Shown: piece after piece, positions 4,451-64,000 of the stretch | Layout: the number at the start of each line of letters is the position of its first letter | Position numbering within the stretch: the stretch's first letter is position 1 | Assembly: GCA_002224055.1 (NCBI GenBank) | Contig: AZLU01000160.1 | Location: forward strand, 33,252 to 97,251 | Length of the DNA: 64,000 bases | Direction: 5' to 3' | Source: Pezizomycotina sp. ARF18 | Lineage: Eukaryota > Ascomycota | The notes under the pieces: model-generated | The model's input: the letters and a program-made list of their open reading frames with translations, nothing else | Database searches by the model: none | Told to the model about the DNA's origin: nothing | Position numbers and translations under genes: made by a program

Positions 4451-5562
4451 CTAGCCCACTAACCCCTTACTCTCGATGATGTTTGGTTTCACTTTTTTTT
4501 GCAATCCCAAGGTTAGACTGAAGAATTTAGCTTTGTGGTCCCCGGTCGCATCAGCTATCCCCTTGAAGTCTTCTTCGTCCAACTCCCAACCCTCTACAAC
4601 ATCCATCTGCTCCTTCATCCTGTCTTCCTTTCTGCTGGACGTGACAACAGTAAATCCTTGCTGCAGGGACCACTTGAGAGAATCTGCGCGACTGTGCGGT
4701 TGGGATACTCTCGGCCACGAGGCTCTCCAGGTATCCTGGCAATGGGCCTGCGTCGAGGCGACCCGCAATCGGCGCCAGGGACTATACCCCTGGTTAACGA
4801 TACCGTATTTCTTGTTCGTGGCGATAGTCTCGTGTCTTATAAAGTAGAACGTATAATGTCAGTTTGATTACTATTCCCTTCCGATAGGACTCGGAAATAC
4901 TACACCATGAAAATGCAGTATTCTGATCGTGACACTAGAGGAAGTGCTCACTCGATGTAATAAGGGTTCAGTTCAAACTGATGCATCGCAGGCCTTATTT
5001 TTGCGACTTTTACAATCTGCTCAATCTGTTCCGGCTGGAAATTGGAAATGCCAATCGACTTTGCCAGACCCTTTTCCTTGATCCGCTCCATCATCCTCCA
5101 CCCTTCCTCGATAGCCGGAGTCCTCCTTGTTGTGAGGTGCGTGGATTAGGAAAGCGTCGACGTAGTCCAGCTGCAATTCAGCGAGGAATCCCCTGAGGAC
5201 TTCCTCCCAGTCTTTGCTGTGGTACAGAGACGGCCAGATTTTGGTGTCGATACAGAACTCGGAGCGCGGAATACCCGAGTTCTTAAGGGCGACTCCGACC
5301 TCTTTGTGTGTCCTGTAGCGACCCGCACAGTCGAAGGCCCTGTAGCCGACTTTGATGGCGGCCGAGAATTGTTCGACCCATTTTTCGTCAAAGTCGGGCT
5401 TGGTGGGACTACGGGGACTCATGTTAGTGTGTGAAGAGCTGCGGGTTTAACAAGTACTCGGAGACTCAGCTTACTCGAGATTTCCAGCGCCGTAGGCAAT
5501 AACGGCAACGGAAGGTTATCAGCGTTGGGAAGAGGAATGGTCGGAATCTTGGGAGCGGACAT
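4451..5562 (-). CDS. Aldo/keto reductase
   Basis: An NAD(P)H-dependent carbonyl reductase with a TIM-barrel fold, cytosolic by family knowledge. From the N terminus: MSAPKIPTIPLPNADNLPLP, then IAYGAGNLE, an intron, VGYRAFDCAGRYRTHKEVG, TKIWPS, DYVDAFLIHAPHN, GLAKSIGISNFQPEQIEQI, FELNPYYIE, a further intron, KKYGIVNQGYSP and LKWSLQQGFTVVTSSRKEDR. The expected catalytic Asp, Tyr, Lys and His can all be seen (FDCAG, GRY, TKIW, IHAPHN). The start is the ATG at 5562. The frame slips at least five times, for example a three-C run where the family would have four (at about 4780). The fold residues are otherwise intact, so this is probably a functional gene blurred by indels. Confidence 0.85.
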
Positions 5563-32646: not shown

Positions 32647-34104
32647 GGAGGGTGGTGTGAAAAAAACTATTGGGTTTGCTAGGGCTGGTGTTAGTGTATT
32701 TGAAATCATTGCTGTAAACGCTGGGCTCCACGTGGGAGCTGTGCGTGGTAGGGGGGTTGTTGGTGGCCTGTTTGCCTGTGTTTTTTTTTTTTTTTTTAAA
32801 ACTCAGTGGGCGGATTTCGTTAATAGCGAGGCGGAGTTGCGCAATACTCTGGAGCCTTTGACCCTGGATTTTTCTTTGCTTTCTTGTCCTTCGCTTTCCT
32901 TCATCATTGATCTTCGCGATCGCCGTTCATGTTCATGTTTTGGAAAGTTAGAAGCATTGTTTCGATTAGAGAGAGCATCGTACTATAGCTACATCATTAC
33001 TCACTGTAAAATATCGATTCCTTCTTTTCCTTCGAGTCTTATATTGCCGTATTGCCGTATCTATCGATCGATCGATTGAGAGTTCACCTCCGGATATCTT
33101 CTTTTAGCCTGTTAATTTCACAAATTGTTGGATCTACAGTGCAAAAAGTGCAATCTTTTCCACCTCCCCCAAGTTCCAACCCACCAAATCCGGACAAAAT
33201 TAGCCATTGTGGAGCAAAGTTTGGCAGCAGGGGAGGGGGCCAAGATTTGGGGCTTCAGCTTTGGCTTTCGAAGGGCAAATGGCGGAAGATCTACTTCTGG
33301 GCGCTCCCCCTTTTTGTCTTTGTTGCTGCTCCTGCTCCCGCTCCTGGTCACCGAAGATACTTACTTATCAAGAGAGCGAAATCCTTTCGCCTAATGAACC
33401 AGTCTCATTAAGTGATTTTTATAAGGTAATACTATCTACCTTCCCGAAGGCTGCAACTTTTACCAGAAATGGATCCTTCTAGCGACGAGGGTGAAGCTTG
33501 TCTTTTCCTTGGAATTATCGCTTGCAAACGTGGTCAGTGGTCACACACCAAATATATTTGTATCGCGACATGGCGATATCTCTCCTCGCAAGGAGAAACT
33601 CATCCAGTGTTTTTTTTTTTTTTTTTTTTTTTTTTTTTCACAACCCTCTAGTGTTTACCGACTGCCTCAGCCGCATTTCTCCGGATGGTCGTGGGAAAAA
33701 GGGCCAAGGAAGATGAGGAGGAAATACGGGATTTACCGCGAGATGCTTTTTTCATCACTTTTAATTGTGCTCTTTCAAGTCTGATCTTGCTGTAATTTCC
33801 AGACACCGAAATAAGGGTGGGGGCCAGCGCTTGAAGTTCCTCAGCCTGCATCGAGTCTAGGCGCCTACGGACTAAGTGCACTGTGAGTAAAAATAATTAC
33901 ACAACGAACGCCAGGAAAAAAAAAAAAAAAAAAAACAAAGGGCAAATAAAAGTGTTTCCGTGCCCCCCCCCTTTTTTTTATTGTGAATATTTTTCTTCAC
34001 CATCTGCTTTAGAGGATCACAGTATTGAAATAAAAATCAATTTCTTTTTCTTTCGCTTTCTTTCTTCTTTCTTTGTATTGATATCGAATCCTGAAGAAAA
34101 AGAG
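32647..34104. other. Intergenic, no gene seen
   Basis: Rich in homopolymers: T15 near 32780, T29 at 33610-33638, A19 near 33916 and a C8-T8 junction near 33963. Short frames that span the T runs are artefacts of low complexity. Confidence 0.5.
33610..33638 (+). repeat. T homopolymer, 29 nt
   Basis: Twenty-nine consecutive T residues, the longest homopolymer in the window. Confidence 0.9.
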
Positions 34105-36200
34105 ATGCATCGAAGAGGCCTCCAGAAGGCGGGGAAGTTTATAGCTTCTTTCCTGCCGTTCCTACCCATAACATGCCTAGCCGAACCGATACTGCTCGAC
34201 CTCCGGCATGAACCTGAGGGAGGGTCACCGTTCGCGTCGCATCAGACGTCGCTGATCAAGCGGCAACAGCTGCTGGATACTTACATGACCTTCGTCGTAA
34301 GTGAGAGACTCTAGTGATGATGATGACGGGCTTCTACGGGATACTGATAATGTTGATTCTTGAAACAGCCGTCGCACAGTGAGTTTTATGTAAACATGGC
34401 GGTTGGTAAGTAAAGTAACCGTTTTTCTCTTATACTAATAATCAAAAATCTCTTTTGTGGAGGTGTTGAGTATTTCCTTCATTGCAACCTTTGCTGATAA
34501 AACTACACGCTTTCTGATAAACAGGCTCCCTGCCCAACAGATAAAATTCGCCGTGACGGTACTGGAAGATACATGGCTACCGGGACCATTACCGTCCGAC
34601 AACTACTGCAACGTCGATGTGTCCACTATGACGCTCCCGCAATACAACCTCTGCTACCAGTCCGAAGCATCGGGGACGTTCAACCCGTCGAAGTCGAATT
34701 CGTACAAAAACGAGACCGTCGTACAGACGTTCAACGCCAGCGTGACATACGTGCGTCCCATTTCTTCGCTCCGTCATGTTTTTGTGTCTGGTTATCTTAC
34801 TAATGGATTCTGTTTTTTTTTTTAGGCCTACGGCTACTACGGCATCGACAACTGGACCCTCGGCCAAACAAACATCAACAACGTGACCTTCGGCGTCGCG
34901 ACGAACTACTCCTTCTCGCCGCCGCTCGGTTTGGGCGTTTACCCGAACTTCGGCAGCAAGAGCGTCGAAACCCTCCCGCAGGCACTGAAGAGGCAAGGTC
35001 TTGTCGACATCGTCGCATACGGCGTGTACCTCAATGACTGGCGCGCAAACACCGGTCAACTATCCATCGGTTCCGTCGATATATCGAAGTACGACGGCGA
35101 CCTGCACACATTTGATCCACAGGTTCTTAATACCTTGGTTCCGCTGCAGGGATTGGACCTTGTCGCGGGTGGTAAGACGGCGAACCTGGCGCCGAGTTCG
35201 AAGTCGTATTTGACTACGATTCAGTTGGGAAATTCGGGGCTATACCTTCCGGATAACGTCATGACCGCGCTCGCGAGCCGCTATAACGGCAAGTACGACG
35301 CGAACTGGGGCGGTTACCTGTGCGACTGCTCTGAGGGAAACACGGACGATAAGCTGAAGTGGAACTTCGACGGTATCAGCGTTACCTCCCCATCGATCAG
35401 CTTATTATACCCGCGGTGTCGAAGAACGGAACCCGGTGGAAGTTACCAGGGAGTGATACGGACGCGTGTGAGTTGCGGATGGCGTCGTCCGCGCCGTTCG
35501 CGCCGATTAATTTCGGATTGGGCACGCCGTTTTTGAGGGGTGCGTATGCGGTGTTTGATTTTACGAATAATCAGACGAGCATCGCCCAGGCGAAGATCAA
35601 CGTTACGACACAGAATTTGGTTCCGATTAATGAGAGTTTGAAGCTTTTTAATCCGAAGGGGGACGGCGCAAACGTGCACACCATGTCCCTTCCCGTACCC
35701 ACGGTGACGGGAACCGGCGGTGCGACGAGCGGCGGTGCCAACCGGGGTGATAATGGTGGGGTTCAAAGTCACACACTGGAGCTATTGTCGGTGGTGTAGT
35801 CGGTGGCCTCGCTGTGCTCGCGCTGATCATCGGTGGTGCTTTACTATTCATTCACTTCAACAAGAAGAAGAACAAGGCAGCCGCTGATGCTGGTGCTGGT
35901 CAGGAATACCCACCCGTTCCTCCACCGGCTGCGGGAGCTGCTGCCGGTGCCGCTGGTGCGAGTAATGAGTATAAGGGGCATGAGAATAATCCTCCGCGAC
36001 CGGTTTCTGAACTGCCGAGCCCGATGTCACCGCCCCCGCCGCCAATTTCGCCCCCGCCGGGTGAATATGGGCAGCAAGGGCAGCAGAACTGGGGCAATCC
36101 GCAGCAGTACCAGCACCACGGGCACGGGTATCCGCAGGTGCCGCAGCCGCAGCAGTACACCCAGCAGCCAGATTATAGGCCGCCGGCGGAGATGCCGTAG
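34105..36200 (+). CDS. Membrane-anchored aspartyl-protease-like protein lacking both catalytic Asp
   Basis: The A1 pepsin fold is recognisable. The ATG at 34105 starts a signal peptide, then FYVNMAVGSLPN, two small introns, and FAVTVLEDTWLPG at the place where pepsins have the first D-T-G-S-S-D-T-W-L-P. Next come GSVDISKYDGDLHTF and TIQLGNSGLYLPD, where the second D-[ST]-G would be. Aligned residue by residue, both catalytic Asp are replaced (V and Q). Further on are APINFGLGTPFLRGAYAVFD, a Gly-rich stalk, a membrane segment (AIVGGVVGGLAVLALIIGGA), a basic stop-transfer sequence and a 110-residue Pro/Gln/Gly-rich cytoplasmic tail. Probably a non-catalytic surface protein. Frame slips occur at about 34530, 35400 and 35765. 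Confidence 0.8.
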
Positions 36201-53841: not shown

Positions 53842-54405
53842 ATGGTGTTTTCATTGTCGAGTCTAGTTCTACTTACTATAGCATCTATCAATGCAGTTTC
53901 GAGCACTCCTATAATTTTAGATTATAGAACCCCAATTTGGGAAAAGCAAGCTTGGCGAAGTTCAGCTTCCAAAGAATACAATCCACTCCCCATCACCCCT
54001 ACTTTATCTCTTGAAGGAGCCCATATAGTGCTCGAGAACGTGGATGATAAGCTCGGAACTCAGCACACGGTGGAGATCTTTGGTATCCAGGTGGCACATG
54101 TCGAATTAGTTGGCAAGTCCTGCAACAAGCCATTACAAAAGTCCATGAAAGATTTGCGGGGCAAGTACTATCACGAAGGTGGGTGCTTTCATGATTTCGA
54201 TATTTAAAATCGCCTTTCGTGAATTCGTTACGTATATTGTTCTTTACATTCTAACGTCTTACAATCTTACTTTTTTCCCAGAATCGAAAAGAGCTTTCTC
54301 ACTTTGGGCTTTGACCCTCACGGATCTCGAAACCTCTACTACCCATACTTACTCAAAGAGAAGACTACCGATTCTTCCTTATCAATAATAGGCTTTATTA
54401 TATAA
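53842..54405 (+). CDS. Small secreted protein, uncharacterised
   Basis: The ATG at 53842 starts a signal peptide (MVFSLSSLVLLTIASINAVS). The mature part includes LDYRTPIWEKQAWRSS, LPITPTLSLEGAHIVLENVD and VEIFGIQVAHVELVG, and has only one Cys before KYYHE. An intron beginning GTGGGTGC at about 54180 and ending CCCAG at 54281 separates a second exon. That exon's most protein-like frame is IEKSFLTLGFDPHGSRNLYY followed by PYLLKEKTTDSS, ending at a TAA at 54403-54405. No family recognised. It is the last gene before the RIP-mutated block. Confidence 0.55.
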
Positions 54406-54431
54406 GAGAACTAAGTCTGGGTGATGAAGTA

Positions 54432-54740
54432 TTGAAGGCGCCTGGCAGCGGGTATAGCTGCGTAAAGCTGGGCTACTCCAGCAGGAATGTGGCCGGCGCG
54501 AAGGGTGTTGCTGAACTGCGCTTCGCTCGAGAGGCTAATGCTCTTTTCAGAGGCGAGCTATTATTTCCGATGATAATGTTCGACAGCGACAAGTTAATGA
54601 GGTTAGGTAACATATACAAACGAATGGGCCGCTGGAGTATTTTGTCAGAAAGCAGTTCCCAGCTCCAGGTGAAGTGGGTGATTACGCTAGTTCTCGGTGG
54701 ACTTTGGGCGCACCGACTTGCTGGGCGAAAGTCAAGTTAA
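54432..54740 (+). CDS. Doubtful open frame downstream of the secreted protein
   Basis: A frame of about 100 codons (GYSCVKLGYSSRNVAGAKGV, then FARE and LFPMIMFDSDKLMRLGNIYK) with a hydrophobic patch near its end. It might be a 3' exon of the preceding gene or chance. Composition is normal, unlike the sequence right of it. Confidence 0.25.
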   Translation: MKAPGSGYSCVKLGYSSRNVAGAKGVAELRFAREANALFRGELLFPMIMFDSDKLMRLGNIYKRMGRWSILSESSSQLQVKWVITLVLGGLWAHRLAGRKSS

Positions 54741-55713
54741 AAGAGTTTTCCCCAGTATGAAGACGACTATTATGCTTTAATTATGCTGTTTATTCGCAAT
54801 GCTGGGTTGGAAGATTGTTGGACATATACGTTTTTGTATGCTTATTTATATATGTAAGAAAGCCGGAGAAGGAAACAATGAAACTAGCTTCCATTCTTCG
54901 AGTTGTTAATACTTATTTTCATTTTACATAGCTCTTTGTAACTGTGGTAGTATGGGTAGCATCTTCTTAGTTATATTAAGGGAAACATGCTACTTTTCGA
55001 TACGCAATTTGTTAATACTTAGCGCGTTTATAAACGGCGACGCTAATTAGTTCGCCGCTTAAAATTTACCTATTTTATAATTACGATACGTACTCTTAAA
55101 CTTTAAGCCTTTAAAGCTCCCGAACTCTATAATAAATTTAATTGTTTAGCGTACCGTCGGATAATATTTAGCGAGACGATCCCGTCGATATAGATATTAA
55201 AGAGTTTTAACAGAGTTTATAATATTAGCGACGTTTTAAAGCGTAAGTCTTATAGCTATTATCGAGATAAAACCTATTTTAAAAAGTCGATAATCTTTTA
55301 TTAATTATACCTTTTTTTCTTCTCTTTTTAGCTTAATCTCTCGACTTTTTTAACTTTAACCTTTTATAACTACGTTATAAACTAAAGCTCGTATAAAATT
55401 GTTTTTAATATTCTTAAATATATAGCTTTATATAGTTTCTTTTCAGCGGTTACGCTATAGCAGTATAGGGATCGCGAAAATTATAGGCGACGCTTTTAGG
55501 CTACTGGTTCCGCGGCTTTTAGCTTTTAAACTCTCGCGATACTTTACTCTATAATTAGCATAATAGAACCGCTTATTAGGGCTAATATATAAAGAGTAGC
55601 GATATTAAGCCGTAGAAAATTACGGTAGTTAGTTTTTTTCGCGTGTAGGCTTAGCTAAAGCTAGTAAAAATTAGAACTTTGCTGGCGCAGATGTATGGTA
55701 CGATATCTAATAA

Positions 55714-56099
55714 TGTAGGATAGGATCGAACTTATAGATTTAATTTACAGAACTAACTAAACTAACTAAAGGAATATACGATACTATATATAATAAACTA
55801 ATAATACTATAATCTTAATATAATATATATAGTCTACCTCGACGGCTCATAGAGCCTTATCGTCGTAATCTTCTTAATATCTCTAGCTAAGAACTTAATA
55901 TCTTTAGCTAAAGTTTTTTATCTTTTAGCTATATAAGTATTACCTCGATACCTATAGATTTATTATACCTCTTTAATATATCTAATAACTAGTATCTTCC
56001 CTTATTGATAATATTAATAATCTTTATTTATTTTTTATATCTATAGGCTTTATAGCGCTATTATAAAATATCTTTATAAGCGGTTTAGTAAGTATATCC
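55714..56099 (-). mobile_element. Outer Ty1/copia element A, 3' part
   Basis: On the minus strand this reads DILTKPLIK, the end of copia RNase H, at 56079-56099. A short AT-rich tail follows, and a probable 3' LTR ends in ATCCTACA at 55714. The other side of the element is at 61131-61569, separated by element B. Heavily RIP-mutated, not functional. Confidence 0.6.
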
Positions 56100-56340
56100 T
56101 ATAGGATGAAGATCAAAATTGTCAATTGCATGAAGAACAAACTATCTACCGAGGGCAGTATCCTGCCGTTTATATATAAAAGGAATTCTATATAAAACGA
56201 ATCTTTACGATATTAATATCCTCGTATCGATATATACCGTTTATTATAGAGCTCGGCCGAGGTCGGTCGATATATAGCGCTATAGGTAATTCTCGATATA
56301 TTTATATCGTTTAATATTCCTTTACTACTTATATCTAACA
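56100..56340 (-). repeat. 3' LTR of element B
   Basis: Aligns along its whole length with 60885-61130. On the minus strand it starts TGTTAGATATAAG. It is more mutated than the other LTR: CA and TG sites intact there are TA here. It keeps the CG-rich core GAGCTCGGCCGAGGTCGGTC. Confidence 0.8.
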
Positions 56341-59300
56341 GCCTTCCTTACCCGCTACGGGCCGAGGCCTCCCTATTCTTTACGATCTAGGATAGGGCGT
56401 ACTCCTAGCGCTTACCTTAGTTTAATAAATATTGGCAGAGCTAGCGGTTTAGTAAATATATCGGCGACGTTATCGGCCGATACGACGCGCGCTAGCGTGA
56501 TCTTATAATCTTTAATTTTCTCTCTAATAAAATAATATTTAATATCGATATACTTAGTTCGTTTATTAACGTTATAAGCCGCGTTTATAGCTAGGTAATA
56601 AGCGCCCGTATTATTAATTTTTAATTTAACGGAATTATCTTCTCGTTATTAGTAGCTCTAGTCTATTAGTTTATAAGTAGACTTAACTAAAGTATCTTCT
56701 AAGTTATATTATCTTTTAAGTCGCGGCGCTAAATATCATATATTCTACCTCTGTTATTAAAATAGCGACGGTAGTTTATTTATAAGATATAAACGATACT
56801 ACTTTTTTATATATTATAAAGGTATAGCTATTAACTAAGCGGCGATTTTTAGCTCGAGCGAAGTTACTATCTATATATTTCTAAGGCTATATCTCTCTAT
56901 CGGTACTACTCGGGCTAAAGTGTAGGCTATATTTATGCGTCCTCTATAGATAGCGTAGTAATCGCTATATCGCGGTATATTATAAGTCCCCTAAGTAGGT
57001 AGTAAAGATAGCTAATTCTAACTAAGCGAAGGTTAGTTTTAGGCGCGTCTAAACCGTTAGATATTAAGTTTCTCTAAGTTTACTATAATAGTTCTCTAGT
57101 CTAACGATTTAATTCTTCTTAGAACGGCGTAGCGCGGATATTAAACTATTAATATCGTTACGACTACGTAGTTCTATATACTATAACGTTAAAATAATCT
57201 ATTAATATACGTCTCCTACGATAAGTATATCGTTTTTTATAGTAATTTCTCTCGATTTAAGCTTTTAAGAAGTATACTATATCGTTAAATTATTTAATAT
57301 TAAGCTATTTAAATAGCTTTTTTTTAATCTATCGGCTAGTTCGTTATATATAATAATAAGTAAGTTATTAATAAATATAAAATATATATATTAACGCCTT
57401 CTGTATTAATATCTCTTAAGTTATAGTATATACCCGTATTATAGGTAATCGATATAATCCTATATTAGTTAATACTTTATAAAATTTATTATTTTAGATT
57501 AATAGCGAGATGTATAGACTATATATTAATTTAGTAAGTAGAGTAATATATTATACCTTCGTATATTAGTTTATTAAGAATCGTTTATATTAATATATAC
57601 TCTTTAGGCGCGAGTATATTTACTTATTAATTAGGCGCTAGATCCTCTCTAAGAAATATAGAGGTAATATCTCTATATCGTACCTCGAGATCTAACGCGG
57701 CGGCTACCGCTAAAATAGCGCGGGCTATAGAGAATTTAACGACCAGTAAAATATATATCGTTTTATTAATCTTATAGATAGCCTAGAACTACTAGTCTTA
57801 CCTTATAGCGAACGATCTTTCTAAGCGTTTTATTTATAGCGAAGTATCTACTTTAGCGGTAGTAAACGCTACTACTCAATTCTTTTATATCTATTTAAAT
57901 TAGTTTTATACGTTATATTTTTCTAGCGAGAGTAGTTCTTTCTTTATTACTACCTACTATTCTACTTTTTTAGCGATTATATTATCTAAGCGTAGATAAT
58001 AGTATCTAGATCTTTAATATTCTAATATATAGCGAGAGCTACCGCGTTAATAAAAGTTAAAAAGCTACTTTAAGCGGCGAGTATAGAATTATCGTACTTA
58101 ATCTATCGCGGTAAATTTAATCTAGCGGTTATTATAAAATAAGAGGTTTATAATATTTTACGCTAAATTAGATTATATACTTTAACTATTTTACCGCTAC
58201 CTTAAATTCTATATATTTCTTTTTCTATACTCTTATAGCGAGTTTATTAATAAGATAATAATTTTTACCTATATATTAGTACTAAACGGGTAGAGTTTAC
58301 TAATATCTAGTTTATAGCCTTAATACGTCTTATAGGGCGTCTTACCGCGAAATACCTTTATAGATAATATATTCTTTAGTTTATAAATATATCGAGCGGC
58401 TTTTTCCTATAGATAAGCGGTAGATCTATATCGTAAAGCACTACGCGTATCTTATTTATAATAATTAGTAAAAAGCGTTCTACTACTCGTTTTAGCTATA
58501 ATCGTTTAGCGCGTACCGCTACTACTTAATACTATATAAGGCTAGTATATCTTTAAATTTACTATCGTTTAATTAATCGCTATATTTATCGCCGCTATTA
58601 TAATAAATAACGAGAATAGAGTATAACGATATTAAATCGCGGTCTCTTGAGTTAGAGCGCTTCGCGGTATATTTAATAATTTACGTCTTAATTTATTTAT
58701 CTATATCTACTAATTATTCTTTTTATTACTATATAGAAGTATCTAGCCGTATCGAGTCGTATCGTTAACTATATTATTAAATCTACTACTATTTTTTAAA
58801 CTCTATTATTTACGGGGCGCTATCTATATATCTACGTAAATCTTTATAGAGGTATAGTTTCTTAAGTACTAACGCTTGAGCGTCTAATAGTATATACTTA
58901 CCTATTATATATACTTTATAAGAACGTTAAATATACGTACCTTCCTAATAGTTATACCTAGATCTTTAATAAACGGCAAAGATCGATTTATTTAAATAAT
59001 TAGCGCCTAGTACTTCCTACGCTATTTACTTTATTCTTATAATAAGCGCCTATTCGCTATATATCGAGCTAATTTATAATAGTTATTATTTTCTATATAA
59101 CTATTAGAATATCCTTCCCTACTTAAACACTTAAGAGCGATTTTACCTATTTTATAATATTAAACGTAGTAGTATATCTTAATCCGAAAGATTAAACGTT
59201 AGTCTCCGTTAACTAATTATACTACTAATAGTAGCTTAGCTTATTTAAATTTTTTAATAATAGACGTCGGTTATTATAATAACTCGGTATTTATTATTAA

Positions 59301-60884
59301 TATTTACTTTAAGGCGTACGTTTCTAATATAAGTAGCTAGAACGACGTAATCGTCTTCTATACGTACGCGGTAAGACGATTTAAGCTTATATAACTCCGC
59401 GAAATCTCCTATTATTATAATATAATTATTATTTATTTATCGGCGTACTACTAACCGTTATTTAAGCTAGTATAGTACGCCTCGTATACTATTTTAAAGT
59501 ATCGTTATTTTGCTTATATTCTATGGCTTTATATTTAGTCTTTATCCTTTTATAGTTTACGGCTAAGGCGGCGCCTTCTAGCTTTATAGGTAGGCGCGGT
59601 AGTTAGCGGCGGGCTAGCGCAAAAGGAGTCTATCTCGTTCCTCTAGCGTTATCTAATAATACTACTAGCTAGCGTTATCTTTATAATTAAACTAGGTCTA
59701 AAATCCTCTTTATTATTAGCGTTAATTATAAGATAAACGCTTATAGGTAATAGTACATATATAGCTATATTCTCCGTATATAATATTATACCCTATATCG
59801 ATACGCTTTACGGTAACGCGCCTTATTAGCTACCGCGCTATTAAATCCTCTACGACTAATAATCTTCTCTTAGAGAGTATCTACGCTATCTTAATTATTC
59901 TATTTTCTTTTACTACTATCGTATTTATTACTACTAATATCCTTATTACCGGCGTATTCTTATTACTATATTAGGCTATATTATTATTACTTTTATTCTT
60001 CTTTTAGCGCGTTTATATCGGCGCCAAATTTATCGTACGTAAGTTTTTATACTTTTTAACGTACTTCTTCTTACTTAGTAGGCTTATTACTTACTTAAGA
60101 TTTATTATAACGCCTTCTACTATTATTAGTAACGTAATAGAGGATAATACGGTATTATACGACTTAAATAATTCTTTTAAGATATTCTTAATAAGCTAAT
60201 TATCGTAAAATCCTAAATTAAGAGCCTTTAGTTTTATCTACTATTCTTTTCGCGCGGTTAATATACGTATATATAGAGTCGTCGTCTTCTAATATACTTA
60301 TTAACTAAAGTTCTAATATTACCGATTCGCCTCGTTATTTACAAAATTTATAGATTTAAGGGCTATCTAAACGGCCTATACTCTTATTTATTAGCGTTAA
60401 AGTAATAAATCTACTTATTTTATCATAAAAGTAATAAGTACTATTACATATCATAATAGCCTATTTATCTTTACTAAGCTTCTTATCTAGAGTCTTAGAT
60501 TTTTACGATAGTATTTAGCGAGCTTTAATATACGTAGTTCTATAAAGTATACGCTTTTCTAGAGTAGCTAGTCGCTACTCTACTTAAATGCGGAATAGGA
60601 TTATAATAAATTACTTATTATATATATTAGATAGCTAGATATACTCGGCGCTATATAATAGGTATCTTCTATTAGAGTCGACGAGTATAATATTAAAATA
60701 TTTACTCTACTGATAGCCGAGCGTACTTATAATACCTTATAATAGCGCGACGGGCGGCGAGATAAGAATAAAGTATTCCTTAAGAACATACTACGTTATA
60801 AGCTTCGCGACGTTACTATCTAAGATCTAGATTATTATTTAAGATAGTACGGATAGAGTTATTACTTTTTTTTTATAATATAGT

Positions 60885-61130
60885 TATACCATAAATAAGA
60901 TTAAAATTATTAATTACATAAAGAATAAAAACTATTACCAAGGACAGTATCCTACCGTTTTATATTAAAAAATTCCATATAAAACGAATCTTTACGATAT
61001 TAATATTCTCGTATCGATACATGCCGTTCATTACAGAGCTCGGCCGAGGTCGGTCGATACATATGCGCTGCGGGTAATTTCTCGATATCATTCGTGTCGT
61101 TTTGATGTTCCTTTATACTTACATCCAACA
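60885..61130 (-). repeat. 5' LTR of element B
   Basis: On the minus strand it starts TGTTGGATGTAAG and ends near TGGTATA. It keeps CATGCCGTTCATTACAGAG and other CA/TG sites that are TA in the partner. Its outer half is the least mutated part of element B. The A-rich inner half differs by small indels. Confidence 0.8.
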
Positions 61131-61569
61131 TATCCGTGATATTATTCTCTAATCTTATATATTAAGGCTCGATAGTTCCTTTTTAAACTAATTCTCTTAT
61201 GAAATAATTTATACGTTAATATACTTAAATTTTAACTATATATTTAAAATCTTTTATAATACTAATAGTAATTTTAATTATCTATATATATCTCGATATT
61301 ATTAGAAGCCTTAAACTTAAAGGCTTACTGTATATCTTTAATATAAAGTACCTAGAGAGTTTCTCGTAATAGCTTTTCTATAGCTATATTGTATTTAAAC
61401 TACTAATAGCTATACTATATTACTTTTTAAGTATATAAGATAGCTATTCTATTAAATATTATTATATGTCGGTATAGATCTATAAGTAAGCTATATTAGC
61501 CTAGTCGGCGTTTATATAATATATAAATTTAATATTTTATCCTATATCTTATAGATAAAATATATAAGT
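61131..61569 (-). mobile_element. Outer Ty1/copia element A, upstream part
   Basis: The minus strand carries a RIP-altered copia RNase H segment: KYINV, then YFIRELV, KGTIEP, YIRLENNITD, with TAA where Arg or Gln codons would have been. The last codons run directly into the insertion point of element B. Continues to about 61569, where a GC-rich island begins. Confidence 0.6.
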
Positions 61570-61795
61570 ATATAGGTTTGACATTGGGTGGGTCGGGCGC
61601 CCGAGGGGGGATTGACCGCCCATGCTGCCCGTCGGGTCGCTACTACTAACCCGGCCCTATCGTGGCCATCGGATAGGAAATTCCTCCCAACCCACCCGAT
61701 CCCTACCAAGAGCTAGGGATAGGTAGCTATCCCGTCCTACCGGCCGGGTCGGGATTAAGAAGGATACCGCCTTTTATATATCTCCTCCGGGATAC
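61570..61795. other. GC-rich island inside the RIP block
   Basis: Abrupt switch from about 25% to over 60% GC. It keeps intact CA and TG sites (GACATTGGG, CCCATGCTGCCC, GGCCATCGG), so it escaped RIP or arrived later. It has repeated GGGTCGGG and CCCACCCGATCCC motifs. The left boundary AGGTTTGACATTGGGTGGG resembles the terminal region of some hAT-type DNA transposons, but no matching inverted end was found. Confidence 0.4.
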
Positions 61796-64000
61796 TAAGT
61801 ATCCCTACTAGAAATTAAGCTAATAAAGAAATATTATGTAAGTTTACGTATTTAATTTTTTCTTTTTACGTTTTATATTTATATATTTGTATTAACTTTC
61901 TTAATAAAATTATATTTAAAATAGTTTAATATAAAGACTTAAAATATATATTTTATCTTAATCTACGTAATATTTTTAATTTTTATAATTTAGATTTATA
62001 ATCTATATTAATTAAATTAAAAGATCTTATTTTTAAACTAATTTATATAAAGAAAGCTATCTAAATATTTTATAGTTTAATTGTTTTATAGTCTTTTACT
62101 AGTAAATTATTACTTAATTTATATAATCTTATTATTACTAATATAAAGATAAATATTAAACCTACTTAAAAAATATTATCTACGTAATATATTAAGGTAT
62201 CCCTATTTTTAAATTATCTTAAAAGAGAATTATTATATATAAGAAATAAGCGCGGCTAAAAAAACTAATAGTTTAATCTTCACTACTTTCTAAAGAGTTT
62301 CTTATCTTAACGCTAACGTATATTATCTTACTAGATCTAACTAATTTTATATAATCTTATTAATTAAACGTTAAATAGAATCTATTTAATAGTAAAGTCT
62401 TTCTTCTAGTACTTAATACTAAAAACTAACTTAGTAATTTTTAATCTTATTTAACGCTTTTACATAATATATATTAATATTTAATATATCTATATTTTTT
62501 ATATATATATATAAAAAAATACTATACTTACTTTTAGGCTTACTTTGTAAGATTTTATATTTTGTTATTCTAAAACCGCTGTATAATCTTTTTTTATCTA
62601 TTTTAATTAACCCGTAATTTTATAGTTTTTCTAATTATTCTTTAGTTATTTTTTAATTATTTCTTTAATTATTTCTTTTATAATTTCTTTCGTAGTTTCT
62701 TTTATAGTTCCTCTTATAGTTTCTTTTATAATTTTTATTCTTTTATTTACCGATAGCTATCTACTTACTATTATCTTTTTTTCTTTTTAACTACTTAAGT
62801 AGTACTATAGTATTAAACTATAAAATCGATAAGATCTAGAGAATATAATATATTTTAGATTTTAAAATCTATAAGTCTAGAATATCTAAACGTCGATAAT
62901 ATATAAAAAGAAGAAATAACTTAAAGAGTAAAGTATTTACTATTATAGTAGATTTTAGCTATATTACATATAAAAGAAAACTACTATTATAATATAAGTT
63001 TAAAAAAATTATTAAAAGACGTTTTTATTCGTTAAATATTTATTTACTTATTTTAAGCTTTTTATTTTAAATAATCTTTAAAAATTAATTTTTAGATATA
63101 TAATTAATACGTATAAATTTAAAGTAAACTATATATTTTATTAACTATATATAAATTAAATATTGATAGAACTAGAAAAAGATATCGATTAACTTAGATT
63201 AAATTTAACCTAAAAGAAAATAATAAAAATAAAGAAAAAAATAAAAAAAAAAATTAAAAAATAAAAATAATATAATATAACTATTAAATTATAAAAAAGT
63301 TTTAGACGCTAATAATTAATTATTATCTAATTTAATAATTAATTTTATTATAGCGGGAGCCTTTATACTAAGATATATAATAAATAAAGCCTTAAAATAA
63401 TATTAAAAATTTTAGTTATAGAGATTAATCATAACTATAATAAATAATATTTTATAACGAGTATATATAGAGAAAGAGGCTCGGTAAAGTTAAATAAAAA
63501 AAACTCTAATAGATATTAATAGAGTAGAGAAAAAAAAAAAAAAAGGAAAAAAAAAGAAGTACTAGTAATAAAAATTAATTTCTAAAGACGATAAAGATTT
63601 AAAAATTTAAAAAAAATTAAAAATTAAATAATTAAAGAGATTAGACGGCGTTAGAGAATAGCTTAAGAAAAAAAAGGAATTAGAAATAAGAGAGTAATAA
63701 TAATAGTAAAAATATATATTAATATAATATTTTACCTATTTTATTTTAAAATAGTTTAAAAAATAATATTCCTAGTAGTAGTGAATATAGTTCCTTAATA
63801 AAAATTTTTTTTTTTAAGTAAAGTAGATATTTTAGTTTTAACTTTATAATTTATTAAAGTATAATAGTAGCTATAGCGATATATTAAAATATAATAATAT
63901 TATACCGCTTAGGTATATTTTATAACGCTATAATATATAGAATAGTATTATATATAGTTATTTAATATATATAAAAAATAAAAAATAAAATAAAAAATAA
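61796..64000. other. Very AT-rich sequence, unassigned
   Basis: Over 80% A+T by eye, with long A- and T-rich strings (for example 63190-63300 and 63530-63560) and no reading frame. Probably a heavily RIP-mutated repeat running off the right edge. No telomere repeat is visible. Confidence 0.5.

Follow-up and report, generated by a model that had tools for sequence, protein, structure and literature searches.

Does the gene at positions 34105–36200 encode a working aspartyl protease, a decaying copy of one, or a membrane protein in which the pepsin fold is put to some non-catalytic use? The gene lies within the window, by which we mean the whole 64-kb stretch of DNA analysed (contig 160, bases 33252–97251), in an assembly of 46.36 Mb in 408 contigs. 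It runs on the + strand, as do all its features below, from an ATG at 34105 to a stop at 36200, and is read as four exons with three spliceosomal-type introns. On the basis of its sequence and those of its paralogues, it very probably belongs to a lineage of membrane-anchored non-peptidase homologues of the A1 family.

Read 5' to 3', the gene starts with a signal peptide and a short propeptide containing a K-R pair. The pepsin-type domain comes next, and a stalk leads from it to a membrane helix and a tail. In translation, exon 1 (34105–34296) gives the signal peptide, with FIASFLPFLPITCLA as its core and a hydropathy of 2.01 over 15 residues, and the start of the propeptide, whose K-R lies within LIKRQQ. 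Exon 2 (34369–34405), which reads PSHSEFYVNMAVG, is flanked on both sides by GT-AG introns; its junction with exon 3 is out of frame with a GTAAGT donor and open with a GTAAAG donor at 34410, four bases on. The translation of exon 3 (34525–34750) is N-lobe sequence carrying the first catalytic site (site 1). Exon 4 is read in two frames, of which the first (34826–35394) covers the remaining N-lobe and the start of the C-lobe, and the second (35392–35770) the end of the C-lobe (LGTPFLRGAYAVFDFTNNQTSIAQA) and a stalk containing Gly, Thr and Ser.

The stalk, membrane helix and Pro/Gln-rich tail claimed in the original prediction are all found. The helix, VVGGLAVLALIIGGALLFI, spans 35796–35852 with a mean hydropathy of 2.72, is followed directly by N-K-K-K-N-K, and shares its open frame with a presumed cytoplasmic tail of 113 residues (35859–36200, including the stop), of which 26 are Pro and 14 Gln (35% together). 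A sub-threshold Pfam match of the tail piece to T4SS pilin was put down to chance for a hydrophobic stretch. Stretches of up to 3.07 occur in an any-frame hydropathy scan of the 900 nt past the second catalytic site (site 2) in 24 control loci, a scan that reads all frames including non-coding ones and cannot tell which of the controls are anchored. Hydropathy alone thus does not mark anchors, and the anchor call rests on the open frame that joins helix and tail. To judge from the translation, the helix, the NKKKNK stretch and the 113-residue tail stand in place of the GPI anchor that characterizes yapsins. This arrangement suggests type I topology, with the pepsin-type domain outside the cell.

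In a Pfam search, the open reading frame 34826–35533 matches the pepsin-type A1 family PF00026 over profile positions 70–267 (E = 8.8e-20, 71.8 bits; cut-off 19.9 bits), which places the gene in the MEROPS A1 fold family. The C-lobe end in the second frame scores 15.4 bits at profile positions 290–315, below the cut-off, and neither exon 1 nor exon 3, searched on its own against Pfam, matches a family. The closest solved relatives in a comparison with the PDB are candidapepsins (candidapepsin-3, E = 8.5e-11), to which the first frame of exon 4 aligns. The C-lobe of A1 enzymes contains a cysteine pair that forms a disulfide; the corresponding cysteines of the window gene, in YLCDC and DACEL, align with those of candidapepsin-3, and the pair is kept in all four aligned members of the family described below (the window gene, C56, C37a and C125). 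The motif at the end of the domain, LGTPFLRGAYAVFDFTNNQTSIAQ, likewise aligns with a stretch of 24 residues in candidapepsin-3. Structure prediction on one contiguous piece of 191 residues, from an alignment of four rows, gave a mean pLDDT of 37.7 and is uninformative.

Neither of the two D-T/S-G motifs of active A1 peptidases is present. Aligned at D-T-W-L-P, as the original prediction had it, the first D-T-G reads V-T-V (34553–34561, in Q-Q-I-K-F-A-V-T-V-L-E-D-T-W-L-P), a reading from the translation that the control loci support. Aligned at Y-L-P, the second D-[ST]-G is replaced by Q-L-G (35222–35230, in T-T-I-Q-L-G-N-S-G-L-Y-L-P), which lies opposite D-S-G of candidapepsin-3 in the PDB alignment. 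An A1 fold without catalytic residues is what defines a non-peptidase homologue of the family, and paralogues and controls agree with this assignment. The further claim that the losses are substitutions is right in that residues are replaced at both sites, but site 1 is also one residue short: the loop from P-x-Q to D-T-W has ten residues, versus eleven in the D-T-G-bearing genes C147 and C11, so a deletion is involved besides the substitutions. The surrounding fold motifs are kept, as had been proposed, and so is the Cys pair, but the flap motif, Y-G-D-G-S in active A1 enzymes, is not recognizable; the exon 3/4 junction reads T-Y-A-Y-G-Y-Y-G, in which a Tyr is present and G-D-G-S is absent.

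The window gene is not alone in these changes. At least six anchored A1-like genes are present in the genome: the window gene, C56, C125, and three genes on C37 (C37a, C37b and C37c). C56, C37 and C125 are absent from the 47 PF00026 matches in the assembly. A search with the exon 4 protein found C37 and C56, and C-terminal searches added C125 and the second C37 copy; the third copy was read between the other two, and a tail search located one tail each near 47.7, 50.9 and 53.9 kb on C37. These three A1-like genes form a tandem array (L074, C37:44500–54499) with a spacing of about 3.1 kb. The lowest helix hydropathies in the family are 1.77 (C37a) and 1.92 (C37c).

Read by eye, site 2 carries Q, T, E and E in the four anchored relatives in which it can be placed. 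In C56, site 1 reads GTPPQ-DIWLSL-SLSE-NTW and site 2 reads T-S-Q-I-G, with an intron directly after it; the two sites of C37a are GNPPQ-NPKLKL-DIFP-GTL and T-A-S, keeping one Asp, in D-I-F, without D-T-G. In C125, GSPAQ and S-P-T-T-W are read across a frame break at site 1, and at site 2 E-F-V stands beside a frame break, with L-D-G in the other frame. The site 2 reading of C37b is E-S-Y; site 1 was not located in C37b or C37c, and site 2 of C37c lay outside the set read. The original prediction looked for relatives in which these V and Q replacements recur, and this is borne out only in part: Q recurs in the paralogue C56 and a V-T start in the more distant C55, but the other members differ. 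Since the replacements differ among paralogues, no new role for these residues is indicated.

The distance from P-x-Q to D-T-W, N-T-W or G-T-L is ten residues in the window gene, C56 and C37a alike, and C125 fits ten to within one base, versus eleven residues before N-L-W and D-C-G in C147 and C11. C56 and C37a cross site 1 in a single frame with the shortened spacing and no D-T-G. As the window gene shares its ten-residue loop with these two, the shortening most likely goes back to a common ancestor rather than to a misreading of the window copy. No family member shows both catalytic motifs where they can be read, and the presence of at least six such genes lends good support to the proposed A1 homologue that is anchored in the membrane and dedicated to a non-catalytic role; to judge from these sequences, there is a high probability that the pseudoprotease is real and a member of a family.

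The three tails from C37 share P-K-[VI]-E-A-x-x-x-N-x-x-x-E-A-x-A-x-V-P-V-E-L-P; otherwise the six family tails are dissimilar. E-L-P (36009–36017 in the window gene) occurs in all six as cut and is the only tripeptide common to them. The tails were cut at the basic residues after the helix, that of C37c ended before a stop, and that of C125 was taken beyond its frame break. When the tails of the window gene, C56, C125 and C37a were shuffled, some tripeptide was common to the four in 14 of 5000 cases. Given how the tails were cut, we regard the common motif as a lead and not as proof.

The coding sequence of the window gene is not in one frame: there are two or three breaks in about 1.8 kb, one at about 35373–35394, beyond which QLIIP...LKL resembles C56, and a further break or unusual intron in the stalk, visible in the translation at about 35740–35770. 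A 77-nt intron that would remove the first of these was rejected, as the excised stretch resembles coding sequence of C56; 13 GT-AG pairs are able to bridge the second. It could be that these breaks are real mutations and that this copy is a decaying pseudogene. However, the break rate is not above that of conserved genes in the same assembly: in HSP70, CCT and actin-family genes, whose matched coding sequence amounts to 20.5 kb, there are 38 breaks (1.85 per kb), and 15 of the 15 genes counted carry them. This is a rough count, as some of the pieces overlap or contain stops. A break was scored where the frame changes between neighbouring profile pieces with a gap that fits the profile within 40 bases and is not intron-sized. 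The count used 35 of 38 HSP70, 30 of 33 CCT and 13 of 20 actin-family matches, leaving out C44, C10, C70 (CCT), one overlapping C20 match, C104, C27 and C394, and four tubulin matches stood outside it. Within one frame, the assembly sequence looks good; one HSP70 piece, for example, aligns gap-free over 128 residues to the mitochondrial Stress-70 chain 6nhk_A.

With every conserved gene counted being broken, frame breaks are no mark of a pseudogene here, and a motif loss has to be set against controls from the same genome. The window copy also retains helix, 113-residue tail and stop in one open frame, which argues against decay. In comparison with C56, codon positions 1, 2 and 3 differ at 21, 12 and 36 of 62 codons, and 38 residues are identical, in three ungapped blocks picked for similarity. 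That third positions vary most fits protein-level selection over the history of the family, though it hardly bears on what has happened to this particular copy in recent times. Taking these points together, we consider a pseudogene unlikely.

For the in-genome controls, we grouped the 47 PF00026 matches into 28 loci, of which 26 make up the control set after exclusion of the window gene and C55. The motifs were located by pattern and by eye and recounted by script. Asp-Thr is present within one frame at site 1 in all 26 (25 D-T-G and one D-T-C), and 24 of them carry Asp at site 2, with the readings of C19 (DTC and DTA) scored as Asp kept; in C122 and C12 no second site was located. Errors at catalytic motifs are therefore rare in this assembly. 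In general, a claim of motif loss or of a pseudogene from an indel-rich assembly is credible only against controls of this kind.

What might such a protein do? A cleft without the catalytic Asp residues cannot run the A1 mechanism; as fold motifs and anchor are kept, binding would be the natural remaining function, and a cytoplasmic tail with a common motif suggests signalling or sorting. We envisage an extracellular pepsin-type domain in which the two catalytic Asp residues are gone and no usual flap motif is recognizable, but fold motifs and Cys pair are retained; a stalk would join it to a single membrane helix and, inside the cell, a tail. Its cleft may bind peptides or glycopeptides without cleaving them, and the tail may couple this binding, via E-L-P, to a cytoplasmic partner, giving the protein a putative binding or sensor role akin to that of a receptor. 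The joint reading, a type I surface pseudoprotease with a binding cleft and a tail that links to a cytoplasmic partner, we place slightly on the probable side. The existence of such an anchored family with a common tail motif suggests the dead fold is kept for a purpose; if binding is true, the family would provide specific candidates for a class of surface receptors in fungi. A bolder and rather doubtful extension is that some filamentous fungi have made the pepsin fold into cell-surface receptors, with the dead cleft outside and E-L-P docking inside, expanded in tandem and with the former active site diverging as in recognition proteins.

Alternatively, the dead cleft could act as a decoy or inhibitor trap, binding inhibitors of aspartyl proteases or competing for substrates and so shielding active secreted paralogues. 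The same genome does contain 26 A1 loci that keep the site 1 Asp and might profit from this. However, the changes at site and flap may be too great for active-site inhibitors to bind, and a decoy has no need of a common tail motif, which makes this role quite improbable. Weakest is the possibility that an active protease has two Asp codons masked by base-calling indels, an idea to which the indel-rich assembly and the other frame at the two sites (DGTG and FDYDSVG) lend some colour, but which we consider very unlikely given the 26 of 26 and 24 of 26 controls with Asp, the single-frame passage of C56 and C37a through an equally short site 1 without D-T-G, the lack of a clean D-T-G or D-S-G in either alternative frame, and the need for more than one indel at each of two sites. 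From the sequence alone, with its frame breaks and indel-rich background, the original prediction could not safely exclude a frame slip, but controls and paralogues support its claim.

The reading as a non-catalytic surface protein has partial parallels. Active A1 enzymes of fungi include the secreted candidapepsins and the yapsins, which are GPI-anchored at the C terminus; the window protein instead has a helix with a tail. A1 homologues that are anchored and non-catalytic occur commonly in Pezizomycotina, and C55 is presumably of this type. C55 (L072, C55:146300–149000) represents a second, more distant type of anchored A1 homologue in this genome. Like the window gene it is anchored and has the first catalytic Asp replaced, site 1 reading V-T-S-W-Q, and its segment ahead of the helix, S-H-T-G-x-I-V-G-G-V-V-G-G, resembles that of the window gene. 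Unlike the window gene, C55 keeps the site 2 Asp (V-D-S-A-I-P-Y-L-Y-L-P), and its E-T-W is preceded by eleven residues.

Phytophthora PxAP9 is described as a BACE-like, membrane-bound A1 homologue with an intracellular extension, probably inactive through a Tyr75 to Phe change, and a role as a peptide-binding surface receptor has been proposed for it (PMC3116508). By this description it resembles the window gene in A1 fold, C-terminal membrane segment and intracellular extension, but its change is at Tyr75, whereas the window gene lacks both Asp sites and has candidapepsins as nearest solved relatives. The same text names pregnancy-associated glycoproteins and Bla g 2 as inactive A1 proteins with altered D-T/S-G and as postulated peptide binders; these are from animal lineages and are not described there as tailed membrane receptors (PMC3116508). 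In Aspergillus niger, An11g09240 (starred as predicted secreted) and An11g10270 are listed as A1A homologues without active-site motifs that may not be active (PMC7804941). As described, they are like the window gene in being fungal A1 homologues without catalytic motifs, but the survey section, which sets non-peptidase homologues aside, mentions neither an anchor nor a tail (PMC7804941). In surveys of fungal proteases, genes of this kind are either included in the protease count or excluded as homologues without peptidase activity. Among the open-licence PMC matches listed, no paper had this anchored fungal family as its subject by title or start of abstract. Inactive A1 homologues are already known in fungi and, membrane-bound, in oomycetes, and the anchored family with tandem array and tail motif may be new. 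Searches with the exon 4 protein gave 18 pattern matches in prokaryotic genomes and 5 in viral contigs; none of these proved to be a relative, and the searches are uninformative on fungi.

Elsewhere in the 64-kb window, scans for tRNAs and Rfam families gave no matches. Long homopolymers, of up to 29 T and 26 A, occur at 33610, 18762, 33916 and other positions. An AT-rich block extends from 54000 to 64000, up to the contig end, with a GC content of 0.28 (0.156 in the last 2 kb) and a RIP-like bias: TpA/ApT is 1.41 versus 0.82 in bases 1–54000, and (CpA+TpG)/(ApC+GpT) is 0.26 versus 1.08. Together with the spliceosomal-type introns, this block suggests that the DNA comes from a filamentous fungus. 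An aldo/keto reductase fragment (PF00248, E = 7e-12) lies at 5024–5446 on the − strand.
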